64,000 nucleotides of DNA from Natrinema marinum (GTDB lineage Archaea; Halobacteriota; Halobacteria; Halobacteriales; Natrialbaceae), in contig NZ_CP100763.1 in the NCBI RefSeq assembly GCF_024296685.1, positions 2,356,001 to 2,420,000 of the forward strand, given 5' to 3'. Position numbers and translations under genes: made by a program. Under the pieces are notes generated by a model that ran no database searches, was not told the DNA's origin, and was given only the letters and a program-made list of their open reading frames with translations. Positions 43,430-53,116 of this stretch are shown one piece after another; position 1 is the first letter of the stretch, and every line of letters begins with the position of its first letter.

Positions 43430-45673
43430 ATGTCCGCACGGCCGCCGACTCTCGAGGGAACCTGTAGACTCCTCCCGGGTCCAGTCCCGAGCAGCGACCT
43501 GTTCGCGGCGGTGACCGACGCCTACGCCGACCTCGCCAACGAGCACGGACCGCGCAACGTCCTCGTCCTGAAACGCCACCCGACGGGCCTCGAGTCGCTG
43601 ATGGCGGCGCTTTCCGAGACGGCGCTCGAACGATCCGACGGCGGTCCCCGCTCGCCGCGCGTCGAGTCGCTCCCGGAACACGCCTCCAAGACCGTCGAGG
43701 AACACGACCCGACGCTCGACCGCCTCGAGTACGAGGAGCGGATCGAGCTCATCTCGCTGGTGATCGACGGGGCCAGTCGAGCGGTACCGGACTACCTCGA
43801 GCGCGCGGCCGCCCACGAGAGCTTCGCCCGCGACGTGGGGCAACTACTGCTCGAGGCGACCCGCCAGCGCCTGCGCCTCGACGACCTCGAGGACCCCCAC
43901 GACTGTCTGGCGTACCTCTACGCGATGAACGACCGGTTTCATGCGGAACTCGACGAACGGGGCTACGTCGAGCGGGCGGACGTGATCCCGAAGGCCGTCG
44001 ACCTGCTCGAGACCGACGCGGACGGGCTGCGGACCCGCGTCACCGCCTCCTTCGACGCCGTCCTCGCCGTCGAGTTCGAGGAGTACCGCCGGCTCGACCG
44101 ACGCTATCTCGCGGCACTTTCCGGCGACGCCGACCTCGTCTGTCTCGGCGAGCGTCACGCCAGCGTCGAGCGAACGCGCGTCGAACCGGGCCGTGTCGCG
44201 GACGTAGCGCGCGAGGCGGGCCTCGCGGTCGAGTCGCTCGAGGCCCCGCCCGAATCCGCCGACCGCGAGACGCCGCCACACCGAGCGATCGCGCGCTTTC
44301 TCGCGACGGGCGACACGCCGGAGGAGACAGGACGGACCGCGGACGCAGGCGGCGAGGCCCACGGACGCGCGCGCCGCATCCGCACCGGCACCGCCCGCGA
44401 ACAGGTCCGAGCGGTCGCGACCGAAATTCAGTCGCTTCGCGACCGCCACGGCTGGTCCTCCGACGCGTTCGCCGTCGCCGTCCCGCGGATCGAACGAGTC
44501 CCCGAGACCAGACGGCGGCTCCGCGACGCAGGTATCCCGACCGCAACGATCGGCACGCCCTCGCTGGCGGAAGACCCCGCGGTGAACGAGCTCTACGCGG
44601 TCGTCGCGTGCCAGTGCGAGCGAGCGCGCGACGGCGACAGCCTCGAGCGAGTCGACCACGGCGATCGCACGCGCGACTCGAGTCAGCCGCTCGACGTATC
44701 GCTGAATCGGCTCCGAGCGCGCGTCGCCGACTTCTCGACCGACCTGCTCGCGGAGACCGACGGGGCGAGCGTGCGCCGGTCGCTCGAGCGCTGGATCCGA
44801 CGGACGAACCTGAAAGGGCGGATCGCGCGCGAGGAGACGTGGGTCGACGCCCGCGAGCAGTACGCGGGGATCCGTCGGGTGCTCGAGATCGCCGCCTTCG
44901 TCGAAGAGACGGATCTCGTGGGCCCGGACTGGCAGGGACTGCGCCGGATGCTCCGGCGGACGATCCGGTACGACGCGCCGTACGTCCACGCGGTCGAGAC
45001 GCAGCCGCCGACCGGCGGCGTCACCGTCTGCGCGGTCGACGACTTGAAGTACGACTCGCGAAGGGCCGTCTTCTTGCTCGACCTGATCGACGAGACCTAT
45101 CCGGGCGAGCAGTTCCTGACGCAGTTGTTCCCGACGGCGTGGCTCCGGGAGATGTCGGCCTATCCCGCTGTTACCGACCCCTCGCACGAAGCGATCGCCG
45201 ACACGTTCGCGACGGCCGACGCAGGCGGCGTCGGCGACCCGTTCGAAACCTACCACGCCCAGCGGTCCCGCCGACGGCTCGCACTCGGTGCCCGCACGGC
45301 CGAGCGCGTCCTCTACTGTTGCTCGTACGAACGCGGTGCGAGCGGCCTGCGGCGAACCCACGACGAGTCGCGCTACCTGACCCTGATCGACTCGACCCCC
45401 GGTCTCGCGCTCGAGTCCGTCGACGCCCACGCCGAGGCGGCGATCCACGGCGAGACCAACGCCGTCGAGGCGCTGCTCGACCAGCCCCGCGGCGAACTCG
45501 AGCGCGTGCTCCGCGAGGCCAGCACCGGCGGGGACGCCGATCTGGGCGAGACGGAGGCGCTGTTCGAAGAGATCGCCGTCGTCCTCGAGGACGGGGATAT
45601 CGACGACGACCTCGTCGAAGCGGTTCGCTCGCAGTTCGAGTTCGCCGCGGGGGAGGTGGTCCGCGATGAGTGA
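43430..45673 (+). CDS. AddB/RecC-like inactivated UvrD-fold protein
   Basis: A 747-residue protein that follows the layout of a superfamily 1A helicase but lacks its catalytic residues. No Walker A (GxGKT/S) is present in the N-terminal 60 residues. The Walker B region reads VLAVEFEEY (211-219) where an active enzyme has hhhDExQ; the motif III position reads GERHASVE (240-247); the motif V region reads VTVCAVDDLKYDS then AVFLLDLIDETYPG (531-559); motif VI reads LALGARTAERVLY (617-629). This pattern matches AddB/RecC-type structural subunits that scan DNA without hydrolysing ATP. Its stop overlaps the next gene, and an active helicase-nuclease is the third gene. The assignment rests on motif order, not on a database search. 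Confidence 0.72.
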   Translation: MSARPPTLEGTCRLLPGPVPSSDLFAAVTDAYADLANEHGPRNVLVLKRHPTGLESLMAALSETALERSDGGPRSPRVESLPEHASKTVEEHDPTLDRLEYEERIELISLVIDGASRAVPDYLERAAAHESFARDVGQLLLEATRQRLRLDDLEDPHDCLAYLYAMNDRFHAELDERGYVERADVIPKAVDLLETDADGLRTRVTASFDAVLAVEFEEYRRLDRRYLAALSGDADLVCLGERHASVERTRVEPGRVADVAREAGLAVESLEAPPESADRETPPHRAIARFLATGDTPEETGRTADAGGEAHGRARRIRTGTAREQVRAVATEIQSLRDRHGWSSDAFAVAVPRIERVPETRRRLRDAGIPTATIGTPSLAEDPAVNELYAVVACQCERARDGDSLERVDHGDRTRDSSQPLDVSLNRLRARVADFSTDLLAETDGASVRRSLERWIRRTNLKGRIAREETWVDAREQYAGIRRVLEIAAFVEETDLVGPDWQGLRRMLRRTIRYDAPYVHAVETQPPTGGVTVCAVDDLKYDSRRAVFLLDLIDETYPGEQFLTQLFPTAWLREMSAYPAVTDPSHEAIADTFATADAGGVGDPFETYHAQRSRRRLALGARTAERVLYCCSYERGASGLRRTHDESRYLTLIDSTPGLALESVDAHAEAAIHGETNAVEALLDQPRGELERVLREASTGGDADLGETEALFEEIAVVLEDGDIDDDLVEAVRSQFEFAAGEVVRDE

Positions 45674-46748
45674 CGGATGCGACGCCGACTCGAGCGCCCC
45701 GTCACTCTCCGTCGACGGCATCAAGACCGCGCTGCACTGCCCTCGCCGATACGAGTTCGCCCACGTCGACGGCCTCGAGGGAGACGAGGACGACGGCGCG
45801 CTCGAGGCCCGCGTCGACCTGCTGCGGACCGCGATCTGCGACGCGCTCCGGAGCGGCGAGACCGACCGCGAGAAACTCGAGGCCGTCGCCGAGGACCGGC
45901 TCTCGAGGCTGTGGCGCGACCACGACGAGGGGTTTCACTCCGCCGCCCAGCGCCGCCACGAACGGCGGGTGCTCGAGGCGACGCTGGCCGCCTACGTCGA
46001 ACGCGTCGGGACCGACCACGCCGCGGGGATCGCACGATTGGACGCCGAGGCGGGCCGTGGCGAACTGATCGGGCCGGCGCTGCCGCTCTCGAGTACGATC
46101 GAACTCCCCGAAACGGTACCGGGAGACGGCGAGCGCTCGAGCGCGTCGTCCGCGCTCGAGGCGGACACGGCGACGATCGACGCGACGGTCGACTACGTTT
46201 ACGGCGACGGCTCGTCGATCGTTGGCGTCCGGTTCGTGCCGACGCTCGCGCCGCTGGGTCGGCTGCGGTATCGCTCCGACTGGGAGGGCGACGTGGCCGA
46301 TCTCTTCACCGATCACTTCGCCGAGGATGCCGCCGCGTTCGAGCCGGCTCCGATCGGCGCGCTCTTCGAGACCGCGGTCGCCCTCGACGGGCTCCGCGGG
46401 CTGCGCGATCGACTCGCGCTCGGCGACCGGACCTGTCGGTACGTCCAAATTCCGCTGGCCGATCGGTCGACGCTGTCGGTCAACTGGGTTCGGGACGCGG
46501 TCGAGACGAGCCTCGAGGTCGTCGACCTGACCGACGTCTACGTCGACCACCACACCTTCGGGATGACCCACGATCACCGGAACGAGACCGTCGACGGGCA
46601 ACTCGAGACGGTCGCCGCCGACCTCGTCGCGGGGTCGTTCGATCCCGCCGCTCGATGGGCGCAGATCGAGGCGAACTCCTGTCCGGACTGTGGCTACACG
46701 GTTTGCTGTCAGGAGTACATCGGCCGGGAGGTGCGATTCGATGGCTGA
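45666..46748 (+). CDS. Fe-S nuclease-like protein with degraded PD-(D/E)XK site
   Basis: A 360-residue protein. C25 in LHCPRRYEF and the terminal cluster C339, C342, C347/C348 (SCPDCGYTVCC) match the split four-cysteine Fe-S frame of AddB/Cas4-like nucleases. The nuclease core should read G-x-D then D-x-K; here IDATVD (171-176) is followed by IVGVRFV (185-191), so the D-x-K residues appear replaced by G-V-R. It may therefore be a structural DNA-binding subunit. It overlaps both neighbours (8 nt each), so the three are one operon. It looks like the C-terminal domain of an AddB-type subunit encoded separately. Confidence 0.65.
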   Translation: MSDGCDADSSAPSLSVDGIKTALHCPRRYEFAHVDGLEGDEDDGALEARVDLLRTAICDALRSGETDREKLEAVAEDRLSRLWRDHDEGFHSAAQRRHERRVLEATLAAYVERVGTDHAAGIARLDAEAGRGELIGPALPLSSTIELPETVPGDGERSSASSALEADTATIDATVDYVYGDGSSIVGVRFVPTLAPLGRLRYRSDWEGDVADLFTDHFAEDAAAFEPAPIGALFETAVALDGLRGLRDRLALGDRTCRYVQIPLADRSTLSVNWVRDAVETSLEVVDLTDVYVDHHTFGMTHDHRNETVDGQLETVAADLVAGSFDPAARWAQIEANSCPDCGYTVCCQEYIGREVRFDG

Positions 46749-49700
46749 GGAGCCCCAGCGAGGCAACGGGGACGGTCTCGCAGCGGCGGCCGATGTCGAC
46801 CCCAAAGGAAACCAACACGCCGTCATCGACAGCGCGGCGGCCTGTACCTCGGTCGACGCGGGTGCCGGCACCGGGAAGACGACGACCATGCTCGTCCGCC
46901 TCGAGCGTGCCATCGAGCGGGGCGCGGTCGACCCCGACGACGTGCTCGTGTTGACCTTCGCGAACGAGGCCGCCGCGAGCATTCGCACGGCGGTCGCCGA
47001 GCGCCTCGAGTCCGACAACGCGGCCGCGATCGATGTCTATACCTACCACTCCTTTTGCTACCGGCTCGTCCGCGAGTACGCCTACTACCTCGGCTACTCC
47101 CCGGAGTTCGATGTCGTCACCGAGCGAACCCGGCGGCGGATCGTCGGCCGCTTGCTCGCCGAGCGGGACTACGACTTCGCCGACGCGTCGGCCCGCACCG
47201 ACGGCTCGTCAACCGATCTGACCGCTTCGGTCGACCGGTTCATCCAGTCGATGAGCCAGGAGAACATCACGCCCGACGAACTCCAGTCGGGGCTGCCGCC
47301 GGTCCGCACGCTCGAGCTCTGTAGCGAGTTCGTCCTCTGGCTCGAGCGGACCGCCGGCGACGAGCTCTCGTTCGACAACGAGGCGCTCCGGTTCTTCAAC
47401 CGGGACGAACACCTCGAGACCGCCCGCGAATCGCTGATCGACTACGGCAAACTCCTCGAGTACTGCCGGGAGAAGATCGCGGAGGCGCCGGCGGCCTTCC
47501 GCGAGGACGACGTAGTCCGGGACGTCGACCGTTATCTGCGGGCGCTTCAGGGCTGCGTGACGAACGCGATCGAGACGCTCTCGCTGGACGAGCCGACCAC
47601 GAAACACCTGCCACGGGCGCTGTTCGGCAACGAGATCTGGGGCCGGGCGACGGACCGTATCGAACAGACCCCGTTCGGCCGGCTGAAGCGTTACATCGAG
47701 TTCCTCCGGCTGGCTCGCCACTACGCCGACGTCTACGCGGACTACCACGCACACCTCGAGAGCGAGCGGGCGCTTGACTTCGACGAGCTGGTGCGGACGG
47801 CGACCGGCCTGTTGACCGATGAGACGATCGCGGACGAGATCACGGGTCAGTGGACGCAGGTCTACTGTGACGAGTTCCAGGACACCGACGGGACCCAGTT
47901 CGAACTCCTGACCGAACTCACGGACGGCCCCGATCGGCCCGACCTGCTCGCGATCGGCGACAAAGACCAGGCGATCTACGGCTGGCGCGGCACCGACCGC
48001 GAAGGACTCGATCGGCTGGCCGACGCCTACGACGATCACGAGGCGATCGAACTCGAGTTGAACTTCCGGTCGCGACAGGAGATTCTGGACCTGACCAACG
48101 CCTGTGACTACGGCCCCCAGTCCTCGAAGACGCTGCGGGAGGACGGCCGGACGGCCGGGACCTACGACGGAGACGACCCGCCGGACCGCGTGGTCAAGAT
48201 CGAGAGCGACGCGGTGGCCCGGACGACGCCCGAGCAGGTCGCGACGACGGTCTCGCGGCTGTTGAACGGCGCGGCTGCGAACGTCCCACAGCGGTCGCTC
48301 GGCGACATCGCGGTCATCGTCCGGACCAACCGCCACGCGCAGGCGGTCGCGGACGAACTCCGGGAGCGACAGATTCCCCACGAGATTTCGGGCTCGCCGC
48401 GCGGCGAGGTCTCGCCCGGAATGGAGACCGTGCTGTCGTATCTGCGCGTCCTCGTCGACCCGGACGCGGACGCCCACCTCCGTCGCGTCCTGCTCTACCG
48501 CTACCGGTTCACCGAGGGAGATCTGGCGACGCTCCAGCGACGCGACGGATCGCTGCGCGACGCGGTCGCGACCGTCGATCCGACGACGCTCGAGCGACCC
48601 GACCGGCTCGAGCAGGTCCGGGGCCACCTCGAGACGCTCGAGCGCTTTCGCGACATCTACCCGCTCACGGGGTTCGTCCGCCGGTTCCGCGAGCTGACGC
48701 GGATCGAGTGGTTCTGTACTGACGAAGAGCGCGCCGCGTTCGACCGACTCGAGCGCTTCGTCGAAACCTACGACACCGACGGCGTCGTGCAGGGGCTCTC
48801 GTCCGAGTTCGTCGACGCGCTCGCCCAGACGCTGCAAAGCGGCGGCAGCGGCCGGACCCGCGGCACGCGTTCCGACGACAGCGTCGACGTGATGACGGTC
48901 CACCAGGCGAAGGGCCTCGAGTTCGACACCGTCCTCGTCCCGTACCTCTCGGACGAGGAGTGGTGCGTCGACGGCGACTACGCCGAACGGGCGCGCTACC
49001 GGCTGCTCGCCGCGGCGCTCGACGGGGACGTGGAGTCGCCGCTGCTGGCCGATCTGGCGACTGAGACGGTCGCCGAGGAGTGGCGGGTGCTCCACGTCGC
49101 GCTCACGCGCGCCGAGAACCACCTGTTCCTCTTCGGCTCGGAGTACGCGTACGACGCCGACGACAAACTCGCGGCGTCGACCGCCGACGCCTGCCTGGCA
49201 AGCGAGATCGAGTGGTCGGTCGCCGGCCGGCGGATGGACCTCTGGTCGTCGCTGACCGAGAGCTTCCAGCGAGTGCGGGAAACCTACCCCGAGACGGTCG
49301 TCGACCGAACCGACGAACTCGCCGCCTCGGCCGGCGAACGCCCGGGGACCATCACCTATTACGCCGGCTACGAAGACCGAACGGTCGAACCGCTCGAGAC
49401 CCGCGAAGCGATCGAGACCGTGCATCGACTGGGCCGGTTGCTCCGCGACGGGACGCTGCTGCCGGCAGCCGACGCGGCGAGTTACGGCGGCGAACTCGGC
49501 GGGGCCGATACCGAGTCGACGCTTCGAATTCCCGGCGGCCGCCACCCGTCCGCGCTGACGACCGACACCGTTCGTTTCCCGGTCGATGCGCTCGCAGACG
49601 CGGCCGAGCTTCCGGTCGCGATGCGCCACAGCTACTCCGCGATGGACACTCACGAGACCTGTCCGCGGAAACACTACCTCGATCACGTCGTCCGGGCGCT

Positions 49701-50481
49701 CGACGATCCGCTCGAGGCGACAGCGACGAACGGGGGCGCGACGCCGCCGACCGAGGCGAACGGCGGGACGGCCGAGAGAGGCAGCAATCCGACGGCGGCC
49801 GACGGCGAGCCCGTCGACTCGTCGTCCCGACTCGTCGGCACCGTCTTCCACGACGTCGCTGAGGAGGCCTTCCACCGCGAGTACCGCACTCGAGACGCGT
49901 GGCGCGAGGCCGCCGTCCGACAGCTCACCGCGCGCGATCTGCTCGAGCACCGTGATCCCGTCCTCGCCTGCGTCGACCGCTACTTCGAGGCGACCGCAGC
50001 CGCCTTCGACCCGCCGGTCGCCGACTGGGAGCCGCTGGCTGCAGAGTTACCGTTCTCGCTCGATGATGTCGCTGGCGTGACGGGTGACGTGGTCGGCTAC
50101 GTCGATTCGATCCGGCGGCTTCCAGACGGTGGGCTCGCCGTCCTCGACTACAAGGCCACCGCCGAGCGGATCGAGCCCGACGACGCCGTTCAACTGTCGC
50201 TGTATCTGCGGGCCTGCGAGGACCGCTTCGACGAGCCGGTCGCGGCCGCCGGCTACGTCTACGTTGGCGCTGTCAATGGGGGCGACGGCCATCGAGTCGA
50301 CCTGTTCGATCCCGCGGCCCTGCCGTCGTGGGAATCGGTCCTCGAGACGCTCGAGGCGGTCGACGAGCCGTCGTTTTCGGAGACGACGACGGGCGAGCAC
50401 TGTCGGCACTGTCCCCACCGGTCGCTGGGCTGTGGGCCGGACGCGCACGCGCCCAAGGACGGCTTGTCAACTGACAGCTGA
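46741..50481 (+). CDS. UvrD/AddA-type helicase fused to Fe-S PD-(D/E)XK nuclease
   Basis: A 1246-residue ATP-dependent helicase-nuclease. Helicase motifs are intact: GAGTGKTT at 41-48, VYCDEFQD at 374-381, GDKDQAIYGWRG at 406-417, NFRS at 441-444, HQAKGLEF near 721 and HVALTRAENH near 785. The C-terminal third starts with SYSAMDTHETCPRK (about 964-977), contains GYVDSIRR and VLDYKAT (about 1119-1139), the nuclease G-x-D and D-x-K residues, and ends with C1221, C1224 and C1231. With the earlier Cys these make an Fe-S nuclease. In bacterial AddAB the Fe-S cluster is in AddB; here it sits on the helicase. A role in double-strand break end processing is inferred. Confidence 0.9.
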   Translation: MAEEPQRGNGDGLAAAADVDPKGNQHAVIDSAAACTSVDAGAGTGKTTTMLVRLERAIERGAVDPDDVLVLTFANEAAASIRTAVAERLESDNAAAIDVYTYHSFCYRLVREYAYYLGYSPEFDVVTERTRRRIVGRLLAERDYDFADASARTDGSSTDLTASVDRFIQSMSQENITPDELQSGLPPVRTLELCSEFVLWLERTAGDELSFDNEALRFFNRDEHLETARESLIDYGKLLEYCREKIAEAPAAFREDDVVRDVDRYLRALQGCVTNAIETLSLDEPTTKHLPRALFGNEIWGRATDRIEQTPFGRLKRYIEFLRLARHYADVYADYHAHLESERALDFDELVRTATGLLTDETIADEITGQWTQVYCDEFQDTDGTQFELLTELTDGPDRPDLLAIGDKDQAIYGWRGTDREGLDRLADAYDDHEAIELELNFRSRQEILDLTNACDYGPQSSKTLREDGRTAGTYDGDDPPDRVVKIESDAVARTTPEQVATTVSRLLNGAAANVPQRSLGDIAVIVRTNRHAQAVADELRERQIPHEISGSPRGEVSPGMETVLSYLRVLVDPDADAHLRRVLLYRYRFTEGDLATLQRRDGSLRDAVATVDPTTLERPDRLEQVRGHLETLERFRDIYPLTGFVRRFRELTRIEWFCTDEERAAFDRLERFVETYDTDGVVQGLSSEFVDALAQTLQSGGSGRTRGTRSDDSVDVMTVHQAKGLEFDTVLVPYLSDEEWCVDGDYAERARYRLLAAALDGDVESPLLADLATETVAEEWRVLHVALTRAENHLFLFGSEYAYDADDKLAASTADACLASEIEWSVAGRRMDLWSSLTESFQRVRETYPETVVDRTDELAASAGERPGTITYYAGYEDRTVEPLETREAIETVHRLGRLLRDGTLLPAADAASYGGELGGADTESTLRIPGGRHPSALTTDTVRFPVDALADAAELPVAMRHSYSAMDTHETCPRKHYLDHVVRALDDPLEATATNGGATPPTEANGGTAERGSNPTAADGEPVDSSSRLVGTVFHDVAEEAFHREYRTRDAWREAAVRQLTARDLLEHRDPVLACVDRYFEATAAAFDPPVADWEPLAAELPFSLDDVAGVTGDVVGYVDSIRRLPDGGLAVLDYKATAERIEPDDAVQLSLYLRACEDRFDEPVAAAGYVYVGAVNGGDGHRVDLFDPAALPSWESVLETLEAVDEPSFSETTTGEHCRHCPHRSLGCGPDAHAPKDGLSTDS

Positions 50482-50542: not shown

Positions 50543-53116
50543 TCACCGGCTCCAGTCGAACCGCTCCGGGTCGCGCGCCGCGAGCGCCGTCCGGACCGCG
50601 GCGACGTTCTCGGCCGCATCGTGGACACGAACGATGTCGGCCCCGCGGTCGGCCGCCAGCGCGGTGGCCGCGACGGTCGCCTCGAGTCGGTCGCCGGCCT
50701 CGCGACCGATCTTCGCGAACATGGACTTGTGGGAGTGCCCGAAGAGGACGGGACAGCCCAGCGCGTGGAACTCGTCGATCCGATCGAGGATCTCGAAGTT
50801 CTCGCTCGCCGATTTGCCGAAGCCGATGCCTGGGTCGACGACGATCTGCTCGCGGTCGAGGCCGGCCTTCTCGGCCAGCAACACTCGTTCGGAGAGTTGA
50901 TCGATCACGTCCGCGACGACGTCGTCGTACTCGATCTCGCGGTCGGGGACGACCGGCGCGTCGATGCTGTGCATCACGACCAGCCCCGCGTCGTGGTCGG
51001 CGGCGACGAAGCGCATTTCGGGGTCCTCGAGCCCCGAGACATCGTTGACGATGTCCGCGCCGGCCGCGAGCGCCGCGTCGGCGACGGCGGCCCGGCGGGT
51101 GTCGACCGAGAGCAGCGCGTCCAGGTCGGCGAGCCGTTCGATCACGGGGACGACCCGCTCGAGTTCCTCCTCGACCGAGACGGGGTCCGCACCCGGCCGC
51201 GTGGATTCCCCGCCGACGTCGATCACGTCCGCGCCGGCCGCGACCATCTCCTCGGCGCGGGCGACGGCGTCCTCGAGGGCGTCGTACTGACCGCCGTCGT
51301 GGAAGCTGTCGGGCGTGACGTTCAGGATACCCATCACGGCCGTCCCGTCGGTCCACGGGTAGCCGTTCGCGGCCGACGGGCTGGACGAGCGAGCCGCGGC
51401 ACTGCCGCCCGCCGCTGAGGCTCCGCTGTCGGTCGCCGGCTCGTCGCCGATGCCGGCCTCGAGTTCGAGCGTGTCGCGCAACTCGCGAGCCACGTCCGTC
51501 AGCCCGTGTGGTCGGGAACGGGTCTCGAGGGCCTCGACGAGGGCCTCGAACTGCGCGAGCGTCCCCATCAGGACGGCGTCGACGGCCTCGTCGTCGCGCT
51601 CGAGGCCGGAGAGGGCGCACTCCCCGCCAAGTCGTAGCAGTTCCTCCTTCAGGACGGTCGCCTGTCGATCCCGGAGCGCCGTCCGGACGACGCGGTGGAC
51701 GGCGTCGCCGTCGAGTCGTTCGACGTCGCCGGGGGTGACGTTCGCCTCCGCGAGCGCGTCGCGGGCGTCGGCCAGATCGCGGACGCGCTTGGGTACGTCG
51801 GTGCGGGTCCACCGTGAGCGGGCTTCCGCGACCGCGAACAGCGAGCCGGTGACGAGGACGCAGTCGTCGTCTCCGGCGGCCTCGAGGGCCGTTGCGAGGG
51901 CGTCCTGCACTGCGGCCTCGGTTTGGACCGTCCCGGCCCCGGCGTCGGCGAACGCCTCGGCGAGGACGGCTCGGTCCTCGGCGCGGTCGAGCGTCGGTTC
52001 GGTGGTCACGACCGTGTCCGCCGTCGGCAGCGCGGCGGCCATCGCGCGGTGAGCCTTGTCGTGCATCGCGCCGAAGACGAGGTGGAGGTCGTCGTACTCG
52101 TACGTCTCGAGCGTCTCGGCGAGTCCCTCGCAGGCCCCCGGGTTGTGCGCGCCGTCCAAGACGACCAGCGGCTCGGTGTCCATCACCTCGAACCGGCCCG
52201 GCCAGTGGGCGCTTCGCAGCCCGCGCTCGAGGTCGGCATCGGAGACGCCGCCGACCTGCCGGGCGAGCGCTGCGGCGATACCGGCGTTCGTGGCCTGATG
52301 CTCGCCGAGCAACGGAATCCGCGTCTCGAGGGACCAGTCGTCGGCCGCGATCTCGACCGCGGCCTCGGTGTGGTTCGTCCGCCCGCGGTAGGCGACGCGG
52401 ACGTCCGGCCGTGACCGTGTGTCGTCGGTTCCGTCGGCCTCGCTCGCCTCGGCCGTGTCCGTCGCCGTCCCGACCGTTATCGCGTCGCCGGCCACCTCGC
52501 GGACCGACGCGAGCGCGTCGCCGGTCGCGCCGGTCACCAGCGGTGCGCCATCGGGAGCGACATGGGCCTTATCGCGGGCGATCTCTTCGACGGTGTCGCC
52601 GAGGATGCCCGTGTGCTCCAGGGTGACGCTCGTCACCGCGCTCGCTACGGGGTCGACGACGCTCGTGGCGTCGTACTTCCCGCCGATACCGACCTCGAGA
52701 ACGGCGATATCGACATCCTCGCGGCCGAACTGCCACAGCGCCATCGCGGTCATCGTCTCGAAGAAGGTCGGGGATTCGCCGTCGGCTGCCCGTTCCGTGA
52801 TATACTCGCGAACGGCATCGACGTACTCGCGGACGGCCCCGCGGGGGATCTTCCGCCCGTCGACCCGAACCCGCTCGCGGAGATCTTCGAGGTGGGGCGA
52901 GGTGTAGAGGCCGACGGAGTAGCCGGCTTCCCGCAGGGTCCGCTCGAGCATGCGCGCCGTGCTCCCCTTCCCGTTGGAGCCGGCGATCTGAACGAAATCG
53001 ACGCCGGCGTGTGGGTTCTCGAGGTGGGCCAGCAGCCGGGCCGTCGACTCGGTGCCCGGCTTCGGGCGGAACCGCCGGAGATCGAATAAAAAGTCCGCCG
53101 CCTCGTGATACTCCAT
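50543..53116 (-). CDS. folCP: fused folylpolyglutamate synthase / dihydropteroate synthase
   Basis: An 857-residue bifunctional folate enzyme. The N-terminal FolC part (1 to about 430) has the P-loop GSNGKGST at 46-53, followed by YTSPHLEDLRERV. The C-terminal FolP part (from about 590) has ILNVTPDSFHDGG, DVGGESTRPGAD and DPGIGFGKS. Between them lies an additional helical segment (about 440-570, TVLKEELLRLGGE) of the kind seen ahead of some DHPS domains. FolC-FolP fusion is known in haloarchaea. It is convergent with the AddAB-like operon, with 61 nt between stops. Confidence 0.95.
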   Translation of the reverse strand: MEYHEAADFLFDLRRFRPKPGTESTARLLAHLENPHAGVDFVQIAGSNGKGSTARMLERTLREAGYSVGLYTSPHLEDLRERVRVDGRKIPRGAVREYVDAVREYITERAADGESPTFFETMTAMALWQFGREDVDIAVLEVGIGGKYDATSVVDPVASAVTSVTLEHTGILGDTVEEIARDKAHVAPDGAPLVTGATGDALASVREVAGDAITVGTATDTAEASEADGTDDTRSRPDVRVAYRGRTNHTEAAVEIAADDWSLETRIPLLGEHQATNAGIAAALARQVGGVSDADLERGLRSAHWPGRFEVMDTEPLVVLDGAHNPGACEGLAETLETYEYDDLHLVFGAMHDKAHRAMAAALPTADTVVTTEPTLDRAEDRAVLAEAFADAGAGTVQTEAAVQDALATALEAAGDDDCVLVTGSLFAVAEARSRWTRTDVPKRVRDLADARDALAEANVTPGDVERLDGDAVHRVVRTALRDRQATVLKEELLRLGGECALSGLERDDEAVDAVLMGTLAQFEALVEALETRSRPHGLTDVARELRDTLELEAGIGDEPATDSGASAAGGSAAARSSSPSAANGYPWTDGTAVMGILNVTPDSFHDGGQYDALEDAVARAEEMVAAGADVIDVGGESTRPGADPVSVEEELERVVPVIERLADLDALLSVDTRRAAVADAALAAGADIVNDVSGLEDPEMRFVAADHDAGLVVMHSIDAPVVPDREIEYDDVVADVIDQLSERVLLAEKAGLDREQIVVDPGIGFGKSASENFEILDRIDEFHALGCPVLFGHSHKSMFAKIGREAGDRLEATVAATALAADRGADIVRVHDAAENVAAVRTALAARDPERFDWSR

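Follow-up and report, generated by a model that had tools for sequence, protein, structure and literature searches.

Three consecutive genes of the haloarchaeon Natrinema marinum, located at positions 43430 to 50481 of the 64,000-nucleotide stretch of its genome analyzed here (hereafter the window; the genome is a single contig of 3.77 Mb), most probably encode the three subunits of one AddAB-like DNA-end helicase-nuclease, of which a core chromosomal form (class I, represented by the window) and a mobile, anti-invader form (class II) would exist. This reading proceeds from gene order, domain identity, motif states, co-occurrence, and co-evolution, all of which were directly observed, and it builds on an original prediction, made from the DNA sequence alone, of three overlapping same-strand genes at this place. 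The open reading frames (ORF1, ORF2, and ORF3) are indeed all encoded on the + strand, with an overlap of 8 nt between neighbors, and have the following features (aa, amino acids; Fe-S, iron-sulfur):

43430..45673, + strand: ORF1, 747 aa; protein of UvrD fold lacking Walker A and B motifs, predicted counterpart of the helicase-like N-terminal part (scanner) of AddB/RecC
43415, + strand: in-frame GTG, an alternative start of ORF1
45666..46748, + strand: ORF2, 360 aa; nuclease fold of the AddB/AdnA/Cas4 Fe-S type that retains the Fe-S cysteines but not the catalytic His and D-x-K
45738..45740, + strand: codon of ORF2 C25, the first Fe-S ligand, an invariant column of the family alignment
46680, 46689, and 46707, + strand: codons of the other ORF2 Fe-S ligands, C339, C342, and C348, respectively
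46741..50481, + strand: ORF3, 1246 aa; SF1A motor of the UvrD type and, in the same chain, an intact Fe-S PD-(D/E)XK nuclease (Pfam, invariant motifs)
46741..49290, + strand: ORF3 motor region, approximately aa 1-850 (UvrD-helicase and UvrD_C matches, aa 25-797)
49588..50436, + strand: ORF3 nuclease region, approximately aa 950-1232 (PDDEXK_1 at aa 1026-1228; invariant columns)
Inside 49588..50436, + strand: ORF3 nuclease residues D1122 and D1136-Y-K1138, and cysteines C974, C1221, C1224, and C1231

Comparison with a profile built from five canonical AddB proteins shows that columns 13-606 of the ORF1 profile align with AddB residues 4-670 (probability 98.2, E 2.9e-14), and that the ORF2 profile aligns with the C-terminal part of AddB, residues 690-987 (probability 96.6, E 5.6e-10), i.e., ORF1 and then ORF2 are collinear with consecutive parts of AddB. 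This supports, at the level of sequence, the view of ORF1 and ORF2 as an AddB split into two proteins and traveling with a motor-nuclease in the AddA/RecB role, as had been predicted, and it contradicts the possibility, raised along with that prediction, that the first two proteins are unrelated to AddB.

ORF1 itself yields nothing significant in a Pfam search, and the absence of ATPase motifs from its UvrD fold, foreseen in the original prediction, extends over the whole set of 79 homologues, with neither Walker A (0/79) nor DE[FYA]QD (0/79) being found. Motifs II, III, V, and VI are degenerate but can still be aligned to those of ORF3 (e.g., EFEEY with DEFQD and GERHASVERTR with GDKDQAIYGWR). 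A profile of 30 ORF1 homologues searched against the PDB sequences retrieved AddB of B. subtilis first (3u44_B, E 2.6e-7), followed by UvrD1 and PcrA, and the ORF1 profile scored higher against AddB (125) than against UvrD-Cas4 (114), ORF3 (82), and AddA (70), the alignments to the latter three omitting the N-terminus. A viral origin was also considered and set aside, as a scan of viral contigs with ORF1 gave no relative.

For ORF2, which matches PF12705 (PDDEXK_1) in Pfam with an E-value of 2.6e-6, structure was used, because the sequence-profile search of the PDB returned chance-level matches only. The AlphaFold2 (AF2) model is good (pLDDT 84, pTM 0.85); Foldseek gave two matches below 1e-3, both to AddB, and no others, and the VIA structure comparison ranked AdnA 787-1039 (Z 14.8) and AddB 782-1138 (Z 14.6) first, both ranges being the nuclease domains of these proteins, followed by the Argonaute-associated Cas4 protein ACE1 (13.7), with Dna2 and Cas4 lower. 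The four cysteines C25, C339, C342, and C348 are invariant in the family (CxxCx5C in 79/79), whereas the catalytic His and D-x-K are intact in 36/79 members and gone in 43/79, the window protein being among those without them. The two clades of the ORF3 tree separate the members along this line: by motifs, the ORF2 nuclease is dead in all members of class I, while its residues are intact in all members of class II. The prediction that the second protein is Fe-S nuclease-like without a nuclease motif thus holds for the window and for class I but not for class II. Given that the catalytic residues are intact in AddB and UvrD-Cas4 proteins, a single loss of the ORF2 nuclease in the class I lineage would be the simplest reading of this tree, which is unrooted.

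The third protein was correctly anticipated to be an active-type UvrD motor with an intact Fe-S PD-(D/E)XK nuclease: Pfam identifies UvrD-helicase (E 9.9e-52), UvrD_C (2.3e-26), and PDDEXK_1 (4.2e-20), and the family alignment conserves GTGKT, DEFQDTD, and QAIxxWRG in the motor, and H1037/D1122/D1136-Y-K1138 and C974/C1221/C1224/C1231 in the nuclease. Its cysteine cluster reads CxxCx6C, and the CxxC cluster is missing from the AddA/RecB references. The Fe-S cluster has not been moved to this AddA-like subunit, as had been proposed earlier; all four ligand cysteines are still in place in ORF2, and ORF3 carries a further set, so that two Fe-S clusters are probably present.

That the three genes belong together is seen from their distribution among relatives. 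Within the limits of the contigs, the order ORF1-ORF2-ORF3 recurs in 72/72 named loci, all of them haloarchaeal, and at every locus the AddB parts are encoded by two genes. Across 391 genomes of the class (101 from the family of the window and 290 from other families), 139 contain ORF1 and 142 contain ORF3; both occur in 136 genomes, ORF1 alone in 3, and ORF3 alone in 6. The earlier concern that the third gene might mostly occur without the others is therefore not borne out. ORF2 follows ORF1 across 41 relatives, one marginal match excepted. The pairwise distances between the three genes correlate at 0.97-0.99 (mirror-tree), and they do so inside class II as well, whose mobility rules out species descent as the explanation. 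The ratio of nonsynonymous to synonymous substitution rates (dN/dS) lies at 0.2-0.3 for each of the genes in the majority of comparisons. Taken together, the order kept at 72 loci, the low dN/dS, and the distance correlations argue that the set is not a product of chance.

The two classes share 33% identity in ORF1 and ORF3 and differ in their surroundings. Class I, i.e., the window and other Natrialbaceae, is present in the majority of the genomes sampled from its family and usually occupies a chromosomal locus with ordinary neighbors, which are folC-folP in Natrinema, a CBS protein in 29/38 loci, and uvrA within 10 kb in 19/38. In most Natrinema loci the module is adjoined, on the opposite strand, by a gene for a single protein that combines a Mur-ligase (FolC-like) with a pterin-binding (FolP-like) domain (in the window 50543-53116, 857 aa). 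Neither a RecD motor gene (Pfam; the neighbors are Usp, MFS, a TPP enzyme, FolC-FolP, and an ABC transporter) nor, among the adjoining genes, an Argonaute (Pfam) was found beside the window module. Class II, in contrast, is scattered over many families, is often plasmid-borne, and occurs in defense islands, where its neighbors include a long Argonaute and a PLD protein, type III restriction-modification, SIR2-HerA, and other PADLOC families. Directly upstream of the class II ORF1, the long Argonaute and PLD protein are encoded at nine loci, which points to an AddAB-like module as a frequent extension of the published APAP system. Class II loci with a long Argonaute and a PLD-family gene upstream were noted as L031 (1094-12376), L085, L091, L094, and L095, and further as L096, L103, L104, L108, and L110.

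Another class II module, on plasmid unnamed3 of Natrinema zhouii (L033, 202-16875), is accompanied by a SIR2-HerA pair and an SMC-like protein with a weak LmuB match, the latter also accompanying the module in L080 and L081. As the SMC-like gene precedes ORF1 in L033, the PbeABCD and Dnd systems were considered (PLD-SF2 helicase, small proteins, CxC ABC-ATPase, dnd genes), but their published compositions do not match.

Given these surroundings, it could be asked whether class I is a defense system as well, namely an ancient domesticated class II copy which degrades viral or plasmid DNA and has no normal role in repair. The plasmid or defense-island location of the examined class II members would agree with that, as would the mostly restriction-modification contexts described for UvrD-Cas4 fusions in 2017 (PMC5704561), yet the module is near-universal in the family of the window (ORF1 of either class in 89/101 genomes, compared to 50/290 elsewhere), class I sits at a chromosomal site among the housekeeping neighbors folP/folC, uvrA, and the CBS protein, and it has lost one nuclease, unlike every class II member. 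A purely defensive class I is thus regarded as rather unlikely, although it is the alternative that retains the most weight.

A second alternative concerns ORF3, which would be the only enzyme of the set, of the UvrD-Cas4 type reported in 2017, with ORF1 and ORF2 as separate accessories and no AddB-like half. ORF3 does have the UvrD-Cas4 architecture, and while a clade uniting it with UvrD-Cas4 is absent from the best tree, it is not rejected by the approximately unbiased test (p-AU 0.173, with only three reference fusions). In the maximum-likelihood trees, from whose references AdnB was left out, ORF3 forms its own clade (99/99), adjacent to AddA/RecB but not nested within it; with the longest branch removed, it joins AddA/RecB weakly (SH-like approximate likelihood ratio test, SH-aLRT, 85). 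A Nonomuraea protein tried as an AdnB reference turned out to be PcrA. Against addA_Gpos, ORF3 scores 142 bits at a cut-off of 708, but such NCBIfam cut-offs do not discriminate, as canonical archaeal AddB also falls far below its own (72.8 vs 903.7 bits). Judged from these comparisons, ORF3 appears to act in the place of AddA/RecB, but the name AddA is not warranted, which corrects the original prediction in this detail. The accessory reading is hard to reconcile with the rarity of ORF3 without ORF1 (6/142 genomes), with the match of ORF1 and ORF2 to consecutive parts of AddB, and with the three-gene distance correlations being as high even in the mobile class, and is held to be improbable.

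Finally, an ordinary AddB with a broken frame, or one joined by programmed frameshifting, would also leave ORF1 and ORF2 adjacent with an overlap of a few bases, but it can be practically dismissed, since the relative frame of the two genes varies (49 loci have one and 30 the other), overlaps of 4-8 nt, typical of start/stop couplings, predominate, and both ORFs are under purifying selection, as expected for separate, coupled proteins.

The preferred reading, a three-subunit helicase-nuclease, translates into a mechanism for which, by analogy with bacterial enzymes, we infer complex formation, strand polarity, end-dependence, and the division between repair and defense. ORF3 would be the motor, which loads at a DNA end, moves 3'-5' on one strand, and unwinds the duplex, with its tethered Fe-S nuclease cutting the strand fed to it, while ORF1 would act as a dead-helicase scaffold or scanner guiding the strand, like the AddB and RecC N-terminal domains. 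In AddB and AdnA, the nuclease cleaves the 5' strand and depends on its Fe-S cluster to bind DNA ends; ORF2 would be such an AddB nuclease domain in detached form, its Fe-S cluster holding the fork. In bacteria, Chi is looked for on single-stranded DNA by the helicase-like domains of AddB and RecC, and the nuclease domain of AddA sits where it can cut the 3'-terminated strand (PMC4824097). With ORF2 dead, ORF3 would be the sole nuclease of class I, as RecB is in RecBC, whereas with both nucleases intact, both strands could be cut by class II. Most likely, class I is a core chromosomal end-processing enzyme, and class II is a mobile module against invading DNA which degrades the ends that Argonaute and similar partners generate.

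It has to be noted that several observations weigh against this interpretation. The AF2 model of ORF1 is weak (pLDDT 61.6, pTM 0.40) and its fold matches are UvrD, AddB, AdnA, and RecB, so that it supports a UvrD fold in general, the assignment to AddB resting on the sequence profiles; ORF3 does not appear to be AddA by descent; and 12/101 members of the family of the window do without the module, which is thus not essential there. Furthermore, the genome also encodes a NurA-domain protein and a Dna2-like protein, which makes redundancy likely, and resection may have other owners. The Dna2-like protein is found around 2090831-2092582 of the contig (G000:C1) as an open frame of 921 aa, in which a PDDEXK_1 domain is followed by an SF1 helicase match. 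A search for the Rad50 zinc-hook family was uninformative, as it misses H. volcanii too.

When compared to known systems, the module shares with AddAB of B. subtilis a dead UvrD-fold scaffold, an Fe-S nuclease domain, an active SF1A motor-nuclease, and overlapping genes, and the AddB helicase-like domain lacks ATPase motifs just as ORF1 does. It differs in that AddB is one chain while its parts are here encoded by two genes, in that the AddB-type nuclease, intact in AddAB and in class II, is dead in class I, and in that the nuclease of ORF3, outside the AddA/RecB clade, carries Fe-S cysteines which the AddA/RecB references do not have. Class I resembles RecBCD in having, by motifs, one active nuclease on the motor subunit and a dead-motor, dead-nuclease partner; the partner half, however, consists here of two proteins with the Fe-S cysteines kept, and there is no adjoining RecD gene. 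As class II keeps the second nuclease, its loss in class I would be independent of that in RecC, and the RecBC-like single-nuclease state would be a convergence, reached separately by RecC/RecB in bacteria. The fold of ORF2 fits the nuclease domain of AdnA, from the mycobacterial AdnAB, as well as that of AddB; AdnAB nevertheless has two large chains with a motor and a nuclease on each, as opposed to three genes here, with neither a nuclease in ORF1 nor a motor in ORF2 found by Pfam, and the ORF2 model being a nuclease domain alone.

With regard to previously described genes, UvrD-Cas4 fusions, known since 2017 in bacteria and mesophilic archaea and linked to defense (Hudaiberdiev et al. 2017, PMC5704561), share with ORF3 the UvrD motor and the Cas4-like Fe-S nuclease; the ORF1/ORF2 companions and the relationship to AddB do not figure in the text consulted, and ORF3 forms its own clade. 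UvrD proteins with PD-(D/E)XK motifs were listed in 2018 among Argonaute-operon proteins (PMC6299218). Immediately upstream of some class II copies stands an ago-PLD pair resembling the published APAP, i.e., a long-A Argonaute and the PLD protein AgaP (PMC11442185), whose authors noted a neighboring helicase gene, but the three-gene module is not part of APAP as defined. A literature search covering few subscription papers found no description of the three-gene unit, the relationship of ORF1 and ORF2 to AddB, or the two classes.

The original claim of a distinct design in archaea stands for the design but not for the pathway, since canonical two-gene AddAB-like pairs also occur in archaea, namely in methanogens (L123, L125) and on plasmids of haloarchaea (L134, L143). 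The methanogen pairs were found as ORF1 matches in other orders, together with UvrD-Cas4 fusions (L122, L124). In the plasmid pairs (L134, 1626-8445; L143, 1775-8579), a PD-(D/E)XK protein of ~1060 aa is combined with a UvrD protein of ~1210 aa, and one of the two adjoins a BrxA-family (BREX) gene. A bacterial AddAB-like pair on plasmid 2 of Deinococcus deserti (L140, 2131-8105) has its AddA-like part annotated as three consecutive coding sequences, in the order UvrD, UvrD, and PD-(D/E)XK, which is possibly broken or split.

As for its origin, it may tentatively be imagined, at somewhat less than even chances, that a mobile two-nuclease split-AddAB defense module was domesticated in one family, where the second nuclease was lost and the Fe-S fork-holding subunit kept, and became a core chromosomal repair heterotrimer, independently RecBC-like in end resection and maybe recognizing a Chi-like sequence of its own.

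Mre11-Rad50 is usually credited with resecting DNA breaks in haloarchaea (PMC7776575). If one large family does possess an AddAB-like complex almost universally, a missing enzyme would be added, and haloarchaeal end processing would become testable by simple deletions. The split AddB would provide naturally separate scanner and Fe-S nuclease subunits, with which it can be asked what each of them does, and the two classes would represent a natural experiment in the loss of one nuclease, parallel to RecC. In addition, the presence of class II beside Argonaute-PLD suggests that a laboratory observation cited in PMC11442185, in which a RecBC helicase assists Argonaute in cutting double-stranded DNA, has a counterpart in nature.

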